This document shows, piece by piece, positions 5,537 through 33,991 of a DNA stretch of 34,080 bases. The translations under genes were made by a program, and so were the position numbers. The DNA comes from a virus. The stretch spans positions 1-34,080 of the IMG/VR virus record IMGVR_UViG_3300027714_000057. One strand, written 5' to 3'. Below the pieces are notes generated by a model. It saw only the letters and a list, made by a program, of their open reading frames with translations, ran no database searches and was not told where the DNA came from. The first letter of the stretch is position 1, and each line of letters starts with the position of its first letter.

Positions 5537-7405
5537 TTAAGCGTCATTTGCAGCATCAGTAGTAAAGAATAGTTTTATACCTATAAGTCGTGCGTCACCA
5601 GCTTGATTGTCAGCAGATACATCTCTAGCTATTTGAAAGAAACAACAATCTGCAACAGCAGGAGAACCTGCAATTGTTATTGCACCACTTTCTACTGAAA
5701 CCATTAAATCATTTGATGTACCACTATGTGCAAGTGCAGTAGTAACAACAGCAGTACCAAATGCTGTATTAATAGTATCATCACTTGACATAGCAATACC
5801 GCTTAATGCCCATGCAACTGTTCCTGTGTTAGTACCTGTTACTGTCCAAAAAGGTTGAAAAGTAACTGTTCCTTCATTCCACGATTTAGGAAATGCTATA
5901 CTAAATTGTGCAAAATCATCTGCCCCTGTTGCAAAATCTAATACTTTTAGATCAGGTCTTAATGCAGTTGTTTCTACTTGAGTTATATCAGAGCATGGAT
6001 TAGTTGTACTTGGATACATAGCAGCAGATGGAACCCATATAGATTCTTTTCCAACAGTTTTTATAACTGCACTAGCTACAGTTGCACCAGCAGTATCAAG
6101 GTCTACTGTACCATCTGCAGCAATTGCAATCGCACCAGCAGTAGTAGCAGTACCAATAGTACAAGCGTCTTTGAGTAGTATGTCATCAACAAAGGTTACT
6201 ATACCTGTTGATGCAATTGTAATAGCAGAAGTTGAACTAGTAACACCGATTGTTGCAGCATCCTTTAGAATAATATCATCAACGAATGTTACAATACCAC
6301 TTGATGCAATTGTAATAGCAGTTGTAGCAGAAGCTGCTCCTATGGTTCCACCATCTTTAATAAGAATATCATCTACAAAGGTAACGATACCACCAGAACT
6401 AATCGTCATAGCAGTTGCAGCACCAGCACTACCTATAGTACCAGCATTTTTTACAAGGATATCATCTACAAAGGTAACGATACCACCAGATGAAATTGTC
6501 ATTGCAGTCGGTGCAGAAGCAGTACCAATTGTACCACCGTCTTTAATTGTAATATCATCTACAAAAGAAACAATACCAGTAGAAGCAATTGTGATAGCAG
6601 AGGTTGAACTTGCAACACCAATCGTTGCGGCATCCTTCAAAATTAAATCGTCTACAAGGGTTACAATACCAGTAGAAGCAATTGTGATAGCAGAGGTTGA
6701 ACTTGCAACACCAATTGTTGCAGCGTCCTTTAAAACAATATCATCAACGAAAGTAACGATACCTGTAGATGCAATTTGCATTGCGGCTGTTGAAGAAGCA
6801 GAACCAATATTACCATTATCAGGAAGTAACACACCACCATCAGCAGAAAGCGTAATAGTAGTTGCAGAGATTGCTCCGTTAAATATTGCTTTACCAGCAT
6901 CACTCATATCAAGAGTAAGAGCAGTTATATCAGTAGTATTATCTGTACCTTTAAAGATAATATCTGTATCACCAGCCTGTGCATCAATAGTAATATTACC
7001 AGCTGAAGTAGCAATACTTACAGCAGCATCACCGGCAGAAATATTATCTGCGGCCGGAGCTCCAACTCCCAAATTTGCTGGAGTGATTTTTTTAAGAACA
7101 CCACCATCATTGATAAGAATATGATCAGCGTCAGAAACACTAGTTGATGTAGTACCAACTGCCGCATTACCAGTAGTAATAAGTGTGCCTGTAATATCAG
7201 GAATTGTGATTGTACGGTCACTAGTAGGATCAGTTGCAAGAAGAGTTGTCTCATTTGCATCAGCAGTAGAACCCTCAAAAACAATTGAAGATACAAACTG
7301 ATTACCTCCAGCAATACCATCAACATCACTTATTAGGTTGTTAAACTGAACTCTCAGTTCTTCTAGACTGTCACTAGGTAGAATTGCACTTGCTTCGATT
7401 GCCAT
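5537..7405 (-). CDS. Repeat-rich tail-fibre protein B
   Basis: This 622-aa protein is a likely trimeric fibre shaft. Residues 1-45 (SDSLEELRVQFNNLISDVDG) form a possible helical attachment segment, and residues 60-195 are Thr/Ala/Asp-rich beta sequence. Residues 199-446 hold eight copies of a 31-residue repeat of the type TIGVASSTSAITIASTGIVT followed by FVDDIxLKDA; the last copy is degenerate. Residues about 450-622 form a globular end (ESIWVPSAAMYPSTTNPCSD, PKSWNEGTVTFQPFWTVTGTNTG, CCFFQIARDVSADNQAGDARLIGIKLFF) common to marine phage fibres. The ATG overlaps the stop of the 76-aa gene by one base (TAATG), so translation is coupled. The G+C-rich adhesin follows directly; fibre and adhesin probably form one receptor-recognition unit. 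Confidence 0.8.
   Translation of the reverse strand: MAIEASAILPSDSLEELRVQFNNLISDVDGIAGGNQFVSSIVFEGSTADANETTLLATDPTSDRTITIPDITGTLITTGNAAVGTTSTSVSDADHILINDGGVLKKITPANLGVGAPAADNISAGDAAVSIATSAGNITIDAQAGDTDIIFKGTDNTTDITALTLDMSDAGKAIFNGAISATTITLSADGGVLLPDNGNIGSASSTAAMQIASTGIVTFVDDIVLKDAATIGVASSTSAITIASTGIVTLVDDLILKDAATIGVASSTSAITIASTGIVSFVDDITIKDGGTIGTASAPTAMTISSGGIVTFVDDILVKNAGTIGSAGAATAMTISSGGIVTFVDDILIKDGGTIGAASATTAITIASSGIVTFVDDIILKDAATIGVTSSTSAITIASTGIVTFVDDILLKDACTIGTATTAGAIAIAADGTVDLDTAGATVASAVIKTVGKESIWVPSAAMYPSTTNPCSDITQVETTALRPDLKVLDFATGADDFAQFSIAFPKSWNEGTVTFQPFWTVTGTNTGTVAWALSGIAMSSDDTINTAFGTAVVTTALAHSGTSNDLMVSVESGAITIAGSPAVADCCFFQIARDVSADNQAGDARLIGIKLFFTTDAANDA
6068..6811 (-). repeat. 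Eight tandem 93-bp coding repeats in fibre B
   Basis: The period is 93 bp (31 codons): the same string lies at 6571 and 6664. Copies 2, 3 and 7 are nearly identical at the DNA level, copies 4-6 diverge, and copy 8 is degenerate. The same unit occurs about four times in fibre A at 17398-17769. One 41-bp stretch (6705-6745) is identical to 17663-17703. Confidence 0.9.
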
Positions 7406-16582: not shown

Positions 16583-18210
16583 TATGCCAACACAACAAAG
16601 TCGCTTGAAGGTTGAAAAAATACAACATCAGCAGTTAAAGCATATCCTACAGTACGAACAATATCTCCAGAACCAGTAGGCTTTGTATGTGTCATGGCTC
16701 CAAGAGTTCCACTAACGTAAAGTGCTGCGCCTGGAGTAAAGTTAAATGTATCATCTCGTACAAACGAACCAGGCAATGCTACGTTTACAGCGGCACCACT
16801 AGATGCTGCTGCTAACGTAAGACCCATCATATTAATTGAAGTTCCTGCCGCATCTGCATCAGCTTCTAACCATGTTGAACTACCTCCTAAGATTACCAAG
16901 TCAAATGCAGCTGCTGAATAACCAGCATTTAATGTATTGGTTTGCGGGCCGGTTGCTGTGTGATCTGTTGGTGGTGTAGCATCTAACTGAAACGGTGCTT
17001 GAAGTCCTGCTAAACTAAAGTGTGCTGCGTCGATAGAAGCATCAGTATAGTGTTCACTATCAATAGCATCATCTGCAATTTTAGCACTCGTAATAGCGTC
17101 TGCTTGAATGTCAGCAGTTTCTACTGTATTGTTAGGAAAAACAGGTACAGCAGTAAATGTGTGTACACCTGTTGTTACAGCTGTTCCACTAATCTCGACA
17201 TTAGCATTTATATCAACAAGAGTTGCATTTAATTCTATCTCATCTGTAGCGTTAATATCTAAAATTGCATTACTAGGAGCGCCAATATTCTGACTTGCAT
17301 CATTAAACTGTATGACGTTTGTACTATTTAATAAAATACCAGTATCATGAACGTGTGTTAATGAAACTTCATCATTAGCACCAAATGATAATATTGCGCC
17401 GTCATGCTGTAATTCTAAATCTTGCGTTAATGTTACATCGCCATCTGCCCCTATTGCTATAGCATCAGGGTCAGAAGCAGAACCAATAGTACCAACATCT
17501 TTAATTAAAATATCATCAACGAATGTTACAATACCAGTAGAAGCAATCGTTATAGCAGAGGTAGAGGAAGCAACACCGATTGTAGCCGCATCTTTAAGAA
17601 CTAAGTCATCTACTAATGTCACTATACCCGTTGATGCAATTGTAATAGCAGAGGTAGAGGAAGCAACACCAATTGTTGCAGCGTCCTTTAAAACAATATC
17701 ATCTACAAAGGTAACGATACCTGTAGAGGCAAGAGTCATTACAGCTGCAACCGAAGCATTACCTATCGTATAACCATCAGCACCCTTAAAGGCACCAGTT
17801 GTTGTTATTGCACCAACACCTAAAGTTCCTGCTAATGTTACGTTTGCACCAGAAAATGTTGCGGCTGTCGTTGTACCAGACTTGATAATAAGATTACCAC
17901 TAGTATTAGTTGCACTACCAAAAGTAGTTCCAGCATCCTTGAAGAAAATATCTCCACCATCTGCATCCAAAATAATATCTGTAGTTGCATCAAGAGTAAT
18001 TGTAGAACCAGAATCTATTTCAGTTATGATAGGAGCAACTAAAGTAATAACTGTACCAGAAGCACTAATACCAGAAGATAAAGCATCGCCGTCACCAAGA
18101 GAAGTATAAAGTTCAACAAAGTTATCGTTGATCTTATCACCACCAACTCTTAGACTATCACCTGTGCCGTCATCTGCTGCAGATCCTAATTCTAATGATT
18201 GTAATGCCAT
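16582..18210 (-). CDS. Tail-fibre protein A with gp9/gp10-type N-terminus
   Basis: This 542-aa protein is a likely baseplate-anchored fibre. Residues 13-42 (DDGTGDSLRVGGDKINDNF, then VELYTSLGDGD) closely match, from memory, the N-terminal anchoring motif of T4 gp10 and gp9. Residues 148-271 hold four 31-residue repeats, the same family as fibre B. Residues 272-400 are Asp/Ala-rich beta sequence with IELNATLVDINANVEISGTA, and the C-terminal 150 residues form the common marine fibre end (AGYSAAAFDLVILGGSSTWL, PTGSGDIVRTVGYALTADVV). AAGGA lies seven bases before the ATG and a late promoter lies upstream. Its position between gp7 and gp8 is unlike T4, where gp7 and gp8 are adjacent, so this fibre and the following 232-aa gene look like an insertion into the wedge operon. 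Confidence 0.8.
   Translation of the reverse strand: MALQSLELGSAADDGTGDSLRVGGDKINDNFVELYTSLGDGDALSSGISASGTVITLVAPIITEIDSGSTITLDATTDIILDADGGDIFFKDAGTTFGSATNTSGNLIIKSGTTTAATFSGANVTLAGTLGVGAITTTGAFKGADGYTIGNASVAAVMTLASTGIVTFVDDIVLKDAATIGVASSTSAITIASTGIVTLVDDLVLKDAATIGVASSTSAITIASTGIVTFVDDILIKDVGTIGSASDPDAIAIGADGDVTLTQDLELQHDGAILSFGANDEVSLTHVHDTGILLNSTNVIQFNDASQNIGAPSNAILDINATDEIELNATLVDINANVEISGTAVTTGVHTFTAVPVFPNNTVETADIQADAITSAKIADDAIDSEHYTDASIDAAHFSLAGLQAPFQLDATPPTDHTATGPQTNTLNAGYSAAAFDLVILGGSSTWLEADADAAGTSINMMGLTLAAASSGAAVNVALPGSFVRDDTFNFTPGAALYVSGTLGAMTHTKPTGSGDIVRTVGYALTADVVFFQPSSDFVVLA
17398..17769 (-). repeat. Four 93-bp coding repeats in fibre A
   Basis: Four 31-codon units of the TIGxASxxxAITIASTGIV plus TFVDDIxLKDA type; the last is degenerate. 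They share a 41-bp identical stretch (17663-17703) with fibre B (6705-6745), which suggests recombination between the two genes or recent duplication. Confidence 0.85.
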
Positions 18211-30739: not shown

Positions 30740-31804
30740 CTACTCCTGACCATCTTCATCAACACTCTCCAATGTAATCTCTTCAATTTCTTTTGAGCCA
30801 TACTTAAACTCTGTCTCACATGCTAGGTCTAACTTATGCATAATATCTTCCGTGAAATATTTATGAGGATTGTTAAGTATCTCTTTACCAAACTGCTTCG
30901 TTCCATCAGGCATCTCAAATCGTGTGGATACCTTCTTAAAGATTTCATACTTCTCTGCAAGTTCCAGCAGACCATAGTAACGATCAAGTCCCTTATCATA
31001 AGTTAATCTTACATCAACCATCTTATTCTCTTTGGTGAGTCTCGACTTATGATTCTTACAGTGAATGATATTACCGATTACTTCTGTACCATCCTTCTCC
31101 TTCTTCTTAGAAAGATACACAATCGAACTCGCTGCGTATTTTAGACCACTACCACCACCCATCTCTTTGGTGGAGAAGAGTCCCATACTCTCGTAAGTAT
31201 GATTCGTTACTACCATCGGAACATTCGCTCGCCCCAACTTTAGAGTCAGAACTCGAAACGCTGCTTTGAGAACCTGAGCTCTCGTCATATCCCTTGTCTC
31301 TTTACCATCAGAAGTATCTTCGACTTCCTTGGTAGTACTCAGCATACCCAGAGAATCCAGACATATAAACAGAGGCTTTCGCTCCGATTCGTCTTGTGCA
31401 AGATACTGATCAAGAACCTTCAGGGCTTGAGTACGAAACTCCTGCACAGTAGTCACAGGAAATATCACCATTCTCTTCGTGTCAATTCCTCTTTCAATTA
31501 CCATCTGCTTTGTAATCGCACTTTCACTCTCAAAATATATGACACCTGCATTTGGGTCTACATCAAGAAAGTTCTTTACAATTCCCATAAGAAAGTATGT
31601 CTTACCTGTTGCACTTTCACCTGCGAGAGCTGTAATCTTATTTGCAGGCAATCCACCATTCACTGAACCACTCAATAGTCCATTCAGTATGTATGAACCT
31701 GTGTCAATAAAAGTATTAACGTCACCTGCCTCTACACCATCATCCACAATAGATGCATACTCATTACCAACTTCCTTGATAATGTCTCTTAAAAAATCAC
31801 TCAT
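30740..31804 (-). CDS. uvsX: UvsX RecA-like recombinase
   Basis: The product is 354 aa (T4 UvsX is 391). It forms filaments on single-stranded DNA and drives strand exchange for recombination-dependent replication and repair. The Walker A motif is G-ESATGKT at residues 62-69. Walker B is LFICLD ending at D150. [11 protein letters not shown] (198-208) is the L1-proximal motif, and [18 protein letters not shown] (214-231) follows as in UvsX proteins. The C-terminal part includes [14 protein letters not shown] (307-320) and an acidic end. The ATG directly follows the stop of the 69-aa gene (TAAATG). Pieces of its 3' coding region recur in the 80-aa gene at 32717-32959. Confidence 0.93.
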
Positions 31805-32716: not shown

Positions 32717-32959
32717 TTAACTAGTTCTCGTATTTTGTATTGTATTCCTCATATCTTCCGTGAAATATTTATGAGGATTGTTAAGTATCTCTACTCTCCA
32801 ATGTAATCTCTCTTCATCAACTGCACATTCATCACCCATACTAGTCAGTGTAGTCTCTCTGAGAGCTCTCAGTGTAGTCATGGCAGCCCTTGTTCTTCCA
32901 TACTTCAATAGGTTCATAACAATATCGATATCACTCAGCGTCTTATTAAAATCAGTCAT
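32717..32959 (-). CDS. Chimeric 80-aa protein with uvsX-derived C-terminal part
   Basis: Residues 1-46 (TDFNKTLSDIDIVMNLLKYG, RTRAAMTTLRALRETTLTSM) form a short helical region that I do not recognise. Residues 47-69 are built from uvs[17 protein letters not shown] (57-69) repeats UvsX 308-320 and comes from a 42-bp perfect match. It is preceded by a 19-bp match read in a different frame (RLHWR) and by an 11-bp match (VDEE). The gene has a good start (AGGA seven bases before the ATG) and two strong promoters upstream, so it may be expressed. Function unknown; the UvsX peptide alone has no catalytic motif. Confidence 0.6.
   Translation of the reverse strand: MTDFNKTLSDIDIVMNLLKYGRTRAAMTTLRALRETTLTSMGDECAVDEERLHWRVEILNNPHKYFTEDMRNTIQNTRTS
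32751..32821 (-). repeat. Three uvsX-derived tracts in rearranged order
   Basis: 32751-32792 is identical to 30843-30884 (42 bp). 32793-32811 is identical to 30764-30782 (19 bp). 32811-32821 is identical to 30753-30763 (11 bp). All are in the same orientation as in uvsX, but their order along the strand is reversed, and they join at GAGA/AGAG microhomologies. Confidence 0.85.
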
Positions 32960-32996
32960 TCAATTTTCCTGAGAGACTTTCAGTGGTTAATACCCT

Positions 32997-33013
32997 AGAT
33001 GGCAAATCCATCT
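32997..33013 (-). promoter_or_regulatory. Leader hairpin upstream of the chimeric gene
   Basis: Perfect 6-bp arms AGATGG and CCATCT flank a five-base loop. It lies in the untranslated leader, between the proximal promoter and the ribosome-binding site, 38 bases before the ATG. It could affect RNA stability or translation. Confidence 0.45.
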
Positions 33014-33040
33014 CCAGTAGCCTCTCTCTTCATTATCTTT

Positions 33041-33069
33041 ATAGTACCATACTAATACCTGTTTGTCAA
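33041..33069 (-). promoter_or_regulatory. Sigma70-type promoter, proximal, for the chimeric gene
   Basis: On the minus strand TTGACA (33064-33069) and TACTAT (33041-33046) are 17 bases apart. The next gene starts at 32959. Confidence 0.7.
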
Positions 33070-33386: not shown

Positions 33387-33788
33387 TTATCCGCAAAACC
33401 CCCAATTATCTTTATATGGAGTGTATTTACCTTCTCTCTTGAGAGCAATCCTCAAATTCTTTACATCTCCTGTGGCACTTCTAGGTATCATATACCATGT
33501 ATCATGAACTACATCATGCACAGCAAAGAAGTCTATAGACTCTGGTGGATATGGATATTTACCTTGTTTGCCTGACTTGACAGCGTTTGTTCCCTTACAG
33601 ATGTTGACATTACCATCTCCCTTGATAGATGATTTGACTTGCACTTTGAGTAGTTTACTATTAACATCTACAATAAGGTCATAATTTTCTGTTGTAAATG
33701 GTGTGCTTACACTATACCCATGTTCAATCATACATTTATGAGCAAATATCATCTCTGACCGTTCACCTTGTTTTACTGTATTCTTCAT
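33387..33788 (-). CDS. PD-(D/E)XK nuclease-like protein
   Basis: This 133-aa protein matches, from memory, the PDDEXK_5 type of small endonuclease-like proteins, some linked to group I introns. The pattern is KQGERSEMIFAHKCMIEHGY (acidic residue E9 or E12), then NYDLIVD with D37, then VQVKSS with Q50 and K52. This gives the E...D...QxK catalytic set. The C-terminal part DFFAVHDVVHDTWYMIPR is also family-like. It overlaps the stop of the SWIM gene by one base (TAATG). Possible roles are a DNA-processing nuclease in recombination/repair or a homing-type enzyme; no intron is visible here. The substrate cannot be told from the sequence. Confidence 0.75.
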   Translation of the reverse strand: MKNTVKQGERSEMIFAHKCMIEHGYSVSTPFTTENYDLIVDVNSKLLKVQVKSSIKGDGNVNICKGTNAVKSGKQGKYPYPPESIDFFAVHDVVHDTWYMIPRSATGDVKNLRIALKREGKYTPYKDNWGFCG

Positions 33789-33991
33789 TATCCCTCTAGC
33801 ATTGATACTACTTGTCTTGTATGTCTACATTTACTATTGTACATGAACCCTTTACACTCGCATGTAAATCCTTTATCATGCATTGTTATCTTGTATTCAT
33901 CACCCTTCTTACTACCAGCAACTGGCCATATGGTGTTTACGAGGAAATGGTTCTTGGTGTTGATTTCTTTTGATTTGTAATATCTTTTCAT
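33788..33991 (-). CDS. SWIM zinc-finger mini-protein
   Basis: This 67-aa protein has a C-terminal SWIM signature: C44-x-C46, eight residues, C55-x-H57 (FTCECKGFMYNSKCRHTRQV). SWIM fingers bind one zinc and are known for binding DNA or proteins; they occur in recombination-linked Sws1/Shu2 proteins and some transposases. The N-terminal 35 residues are basic with short strands (VNTIWPVAGSKKGDEYKITM). It overlaps the upstream gene by four bases (ATGA) and the nuclease gene by one base, so the three are translated together. It could be a DNA-binding partner of the nuclease; that is inference from coupling. Confidence 0.75.
   Translation of the reverse strand: MKRYYKSKEINTKNHFLVNTIWPVAGSKKGDEYKITMHDKGFTCECKGFMYNSKCRHTRQVVSMLEG

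Follow-up and report, generated by a model that had tools for sequence, protein, structure and literature searches.

The analyzed DNA, herein referred to as the window, is the whole 34,080-base stretch of the IMG/VR virus record IMGVR_UViG_3300027714_000057, which belongs to an uncultured marine T4-like phage. All the genes and expression signals described for its uvsX region are located on the minus strand. The uvsX gene (30740..31804) encodes a RecA-like recombinase of 354 aa and matches PF00154, the UvsX protein in PDB entry 9gbg (E 3e-159), and phrog_97 (E 2e-88); judged by the last of these matches, it is a T4-type uvsX. With 71% DNA identity, the uvsX of Methylophilales phage Melnitz is the nearest from a cultured phage, followed by that of Pelagibacter phage HTVC008M with 69%. 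A small gene encoding 80 aa (32717..32959), herein referred to as the mosaic ORF, contains exact copies of short pieces of uvsX. It is preceded by a structured RNA leader and a promoter and, approximately 0.4 kb upstream, by a second variable slot that holds a nuclease gene in the window.

Composition of the mosaic ORF

Three contiguous tracts of the mosaic ORF match the uvsX 3′ DNA exactly and lie on the same strand as uvsX. Tract C (32751..32792, 42 bp) corresponds to uvsX codons ~307-321 (source at 30843..30884), tract B (32793..32811, 19 bp) to codons ~341-347 (30764..30782), and tract A (32811..32821, 11 bp) to codons 348-351 (30753..30763). In the sense direction, the order is C...B-A in uvsX and A-B-C in the mosaic ORF, i.e., reversed, and the A-B part of the ORF is one contiguous 30-bp uvsX block in circularly permuted form. 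Tract C keeps the uvsX reading frame and encodes a 13-residue peptide, tract B is read in a different frame, and tract A is again in frame (VDE). The lengths, orientation, order, and frames of the tracts given in a preliminary description of this DNA were thus confirmed by alignment, the 11-bp tract being less secure. The same description had called the small gene one assembled from shuffled pieces of uvsX. The exact tracts stand, but they cover only ~71 of 240 coding bases (~30%) of the ORF, and the remaining ~70% is not uvsX.

For estimation of chance matches, 2000 ORFs were simulated as first-order Markov sequences built from the mosaic ORF. The longest match to uvsX among them was 15 bp, so the 42- and 19-bp tracts are far beyond chance. 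Tract A, taken alone, is weak evidence of copying: its 11-mer is found at three places on the minus strand of the window, and ~0.5% of the simulated sequences match the uvsX end over at least 11 bp. Tract A is made credible by its position, as it adjoins tract B in the ORF and is the immediate neighbor of tract B in uvsX. The chance of finding it in this arrangement, estimated from 10-mer counts, is ~1e-3.

The strict microhomology is 1 nt at the A/B joint and 0 nt at the B/C joint. The earlier argument from GAGA/AGAG microhomology at the joints is therefore weak, though tracts B and C both start with AGAGAT at their sense 5′ ends, which are the landing points. The take-off ends, GAAGA and GAGAGT, are purine-rich.

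The N-terminal 46 residues of the mosaic ORF are not derived from uvsX. No homolog of the ORF was found in phages, Pfam, or PHROGs, and no related ORF was found in phage records or in the whole records of the relatives, the latter search being run without a positive control. Among the relatives searched, none has the same N-terminal half without the tracts, as would be expected for a version preceding the event. Two candidate relationships of the N-terminal half were rejected: its DNA similarity to the slot genes of relatives was equaled by 56 of 200 shuffles, and its content of leader-derived pieces (CACTGAGAG-CTCTCAG, resembling the leader end) was equaled by 75 of 1000 shuffles. Residues 31-46 (RALRETTLTSMGDECA) are weakly similar to the end of a family of small leader-adjacent genes with the consensus ...MGeEcAxEYxxxYG. 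In a profile comparison this segment ranked fourth against 5000 shuffles, with E = 0.86 among real ORFs and E = 0.14 for the best of several profiles, so that the likeness is only suggestive and may be taken as a lead. The uvsX patch starts directly after GDECA in the mosaic ORF; if the likeness is real, the patch took the place of the last ~10 residues of this family.

The family itself is undescribed. Its members are proteins of ~45-57 aa with the pattern MTxEE...MGeEcAxEYxxxYG, and their genes adjoin the leader RNA (L029, 2197-2361 and 2702-2866; L096, 3636-3800, minus strand; L125, 77-217, minus strand; L116, 8086-8229, minus strand; L041, 1210-1368). Additionally, the mosaic ORF contains a 14-bp perfect palindrome, CTGAGAGCTCTCAG (window 32859-32872), flanked by an 11-bp direct repeat, GACTACACTGA.

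Occurrence in related phages and timing

The same, near-identical mosaic ORF was found, with all joints unchanged, in the IMG/VR contigs L001 (3300027668), L002/L087 (3300027522), and L003 (3300028550), which represent three metagenome assemblies other than that of the window. Within the ORF, the four strains differ by one 2-nt change, which is too little variation for a test of selection. The search of related genomes proposed in the preliminary description thus found both the order and the identity of the tracts preserved. The concern that the mosaic is an assembly artefact is also largely removed, since the same joints are present in three other contigs with strain-specific SNPs nearby.

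A related phage, L005, whose uvsX is 83% identical to that of the window, has no mosaic. Its uvsX differs from the window uvsX at several positions of tract C and at more positions of tracts B and A, and the uvsX of L004 likewise differs at tract positions. The mosaic tracts match the uvsX of the window lineage itself, in agreement with the earlier view that the patches derive from the lineage's own gene. Because of this match and of the differences in L005, the copying can be dated to the interval between the split from L005 and the separation of the four strains. By these sequence comparisons the event is recent, as had been supposed. The uvsX of L003 carries one derived base change at 30779, inside the source of tract B, while the L003 mosaic and other phages retain the older base; this argues against ongoing conversion or homogenization at this position.

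No other uvsX patches longer than 20 bp were found elsewhere in the locus in the 80 uvsX loci compared, the mosaic strain itself aside. In scans covering ~1 Mb of related DNA, other dispersed exact repeats as long as these were few, apart from repeat arrays and repeated leaders. Both results point to a rare accident rather than a system. In L032, the 3′ end of uvsX shares a 20-bp repeat with the DNA that immediately follows it.

The gene slot, its promoter and RNA leader, and the nuclease slot

The DNA flanking the mosaic ORF is shared with L005, in which two unrelated small genes (66 and 65 aa) replace the ORF. In L089 the 66-aa type is present alone, and in L088 there is no gene at this place. 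Comparison of these sequences shows that the mosaic ORF occupies a swap slot downstream of a conserved promoter and RNA leader. The predicted promoter (33041..33069) is of the sigma70 type, TTGACA-17-TACTAT, has TG before the second hexamer, and precedes the leader. Hexamers resembling TTGACA and TACTAT precede the leader in most relatives. In a promoter scan, sites in the region were no more numerous than in shuffled sequence; support for this promoter therefore comes from its conservation.

Since the promoter and leader are conserved in relatives with other genes or with none, they predate the mosaic. As described earlier, the ORF does have a good promoter and a ribosome-binding site in front of it, while the idea that the promoter arose together with the new gene did not hold. 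The ORF is intact and, together with its expression signals (promoter, leader, ribosome-binding site, and start codon), is conserved across the four strains. Its expression from the promoter and leader is plausible, and it is predicted to be probably transcribed and translated early, because the slot promoter and leader were already in place. With such pre-existing signals, whatever lands in the slot is likely to be expressed.

The leader (32957..33035) is a conserved three-way-junction RNA of ~77 nt that serves as the 5′ UTR for the slot gene and overlaps the start codon with its 3′ end. Further copies lie on contigs of uncultured marine phages, for example in L005 (931-1007), L089 (1396-1472), and L097 (6796-6871 and 7083-7159, minus strand). 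A covariance model made from 12 examples gave 58 matches with 39 distinct sequences in the contigs compared, some of the loci being overlapping pieces of one contig. In the 39 distinct sequences, 98.3% of cells pair, a percentage that is inflated because the model was partly built on the scored sequences and the alignment was fitted to the model. Double-sided changes numbered 77, compared with 17.5 in shuffles and at most 15 with partners slid, these slid controls sharing the same alignment. The 49 stretches contributed by a pattern search were chosen for conserved bases and not for pairing in the variable helix. The bases CUGG...UAGG...CACUG are invariant, and the helices covary strongly.

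No Rfam family reached the threshold for the leader RNA. The leader is missing from the cultured phages HTVC008M and Melnitz. Bacterial genomes, searched for its exact pattern, gave no match. The genes downstream of it vary between phages and are sometimes lacking altogether. Helix 1 starts no more than ~10 bases from where the transcript is expected to begin, and its end lies directly ahead of the ribosome-binding site; from this placement, it can be guessed that the leader serves in 5′-end protection or translational enhancement of early mRNAs. We slightly favor the view that this undescribed leader family acts as a mobile module for the expression of small early genes that replace one another in uncultured marine T4-like phages, and that the mosaic is a newly forged gene captured by the module. 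The leader RNA may be a more interesting object than the mosaic itself. Confirmation would make it a new conserved phage RNA, one that could also mark fast-changing gene slots.

Among known systems, the nearest concept to the leader RNA seems to be that of the promoter early stem-loop (PeSL) cassettes, through which genes are shuffled in T4-type phages (Arbiol 2010 and Comeau 2014, as cited in PMC4503421). In both cases, as far as that citation indicates, a conserved early promoter and an RNA structure border a slot of exchanged small genes. The titles cited in PMC4503421 name PeSLs as composite promoter-terminator motifs, and this description would set them apart from the leader, a covarying three-way junction that lies in the 5′ UTR, after the promoter, and has invariant unpaired bases but no U tract. 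No terminator was found near the leader in a scan of the region. The hyperplastic regions, or "ORFanages", of T4-like cyanophages (PMC4503421) are similar in that small lineage-specific genes are clustered; the difference is that here one small gene reveals a partial origin from uvsX. Phage orphan genes seldom reveal their origin, and in this case a part was traced, with date bounds, to a neighboring essential gene.

The second variable slot contains, in the window, a PD-(D/E)XK endonuclease gene (33387..33788; PF11645 PDDEXK_5, E 4.5e-18). In L001 and L002 it is occupied by a 176-aa HNH-like gene (HNH_3, E 7e-5, just under the curated cut-off) and in L089 by a gene for a 207-aa repeat protein. 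No nuclease gene is present there in L003, where a short stretch matches the end of the HNH-like gene. The slot corresponds to positions 33395-33806 of the window, 753-1301 of L002, 2678-2684 of L003, and 306-965 of L089. The nuclease slot turns over between strains that share the mosaic and shows presence/absence polymorphism at a single site. Between the window and L089, the flanks of this slot are 89-95% identical, compared with ~73-80% for other shared DNA, a pattern that would be as expected for homing co-conversion. Next to the endonuclease gene lies a gene for a 67-aa protein (window 33788-33991, minus strand) with a CxC...CxH motif (CECKGFMYNSKCRH), SWIM-like by eye. It has no Pfam match, and its DNA is 95% identical to that of L089.

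Origin of the mosaic

The most probable explanation, to which we assign a probability of approximately 0.7, is that a replication or repair accident wrote short pieces of uvsX into the 3′ part of a small accessory slot gene. In such an event, a break or a stalled fork within the slot would provide a 3′ end that anneals to the uvsX 3′ end 1.9 kb away. The annealed end would be extended across A, slip back to B and again to C, and then rejoin the slot, with AGAGAT at the landing sites of B and C as the slip-back points. The patch would have overwritten an existing gene, and the resulting ORF would be either neutral or a variant form of the gene that held the slot before, and not a designed mimic of UvsX.

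A plausible trigger would be a homing break at the adjacent free-standing nuclease slot, repaired by illegitimate recombination, since such repair of homing breaks, with microhomology junctions, is documented in T4 (PMC2988022). The T4 gene segA encodes a free-standing homing endonuclease, lies between uvsX and beta-gt, and has uvsX as its target, which it cleaves (PMC2988022). The present locus resembles the T4 case in having a nuclease slot near uvsX that turns over between close strains. It differs from segA in that the nucleases are PD-(D/E)XK (PF11645) or HNH-like and their homing is predicted, and the presence of the mosaic in L003 without a nuclease gene is a point against the nuclease as trigger. 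The mosaic also resembles templated insertions and template-switch mutations, in which short exact contiguous tracts from a nearby locus are joined in changed order. The best-described cases of these are eukaryotic, whereas here the locus is that of a phage and the joint microhomology, just 1 and 0 nt, is minimal, which speaks against templated repair.

An unlikely alternative to serial template switching is that the uvsX 3′ end was duplicated in tandem and then underwent deletions. Tracts A and B adjoin in uvsX and appear in circularly permuted form in the ORF, the arrangement that a tandem copy would give; the order A-B-C, on the other hand, needs parts of at least three tandem units in addition to relocation over 1.9 kb, and no remnants of intervening uvsX DNA surround the tracts. 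No intermediate with longer tandem uvsX copies was found among the contigs compared, an absence that does not refute the duplication.

It is somewhat less probable still that the mosaic ORF is a functional mimic of UvsX, a small product that would regulate UvsX or its partners or serve as a decoy for them, with the in-frame 42-bp tract under selection. Tract C does encode, in frame, a motif that is conserved in the UvsX of relatives, and the ORF, which has a promoter, a leader, and a start codon, is intact in all four strains. However, tract C would fall in frame by chance in one case of three, tract B does not keep the frame, and there is no independent recurrence among the 80 uvsX loci. The structure model of the ORF, predicted from the single sequence, had low confidence (mean pLDDT 64), and the one 2-nt change in the four strains gives too few substitutions for a test of selection.

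Less probable again is a role of the transcript as a decoy or target, in which the sense copy, with 42 nt perfectly identical to uvsX mRNA, would titrate an antisense RNA or an RNA-binding protein acting at the uvsX 3′ end. No RNA family was detected in the window, the uvsX of L003 already differs from the L003 mosaic in tract B, and we know of no antisense transcript at the uvsX 3′ end. Nothing was found in support of the earlier ideas of a decoy RNA or a short homology donor. An assembly chimera, which 42-bp direct repeats could produce by misleading short-read assemblers, has a very low probability in view of the identical joints in three contigs from different metagenomes and the strain-specific SNPs around them.

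Other repeats were observed in the window and its relatives. Long arrays of a 12-bp repeat of the TCAAGTCATGGA type flank both sides of a 286-aa ORF upstream of uvsX in L018 (1-868 and 1854-2163). Arrays of this type were also found in L015, L017, L019, L021, and L116, and they are open in several frames on both strands. The window itself contains near-exact long direct repeats at 57-880 and at 6207-6763 / 17509-17727, within apparent repetitive structural genes. These repeats have 543-bp and 93-bp periods, and the copies ~11 kb apart share at most 41 bp exactly.
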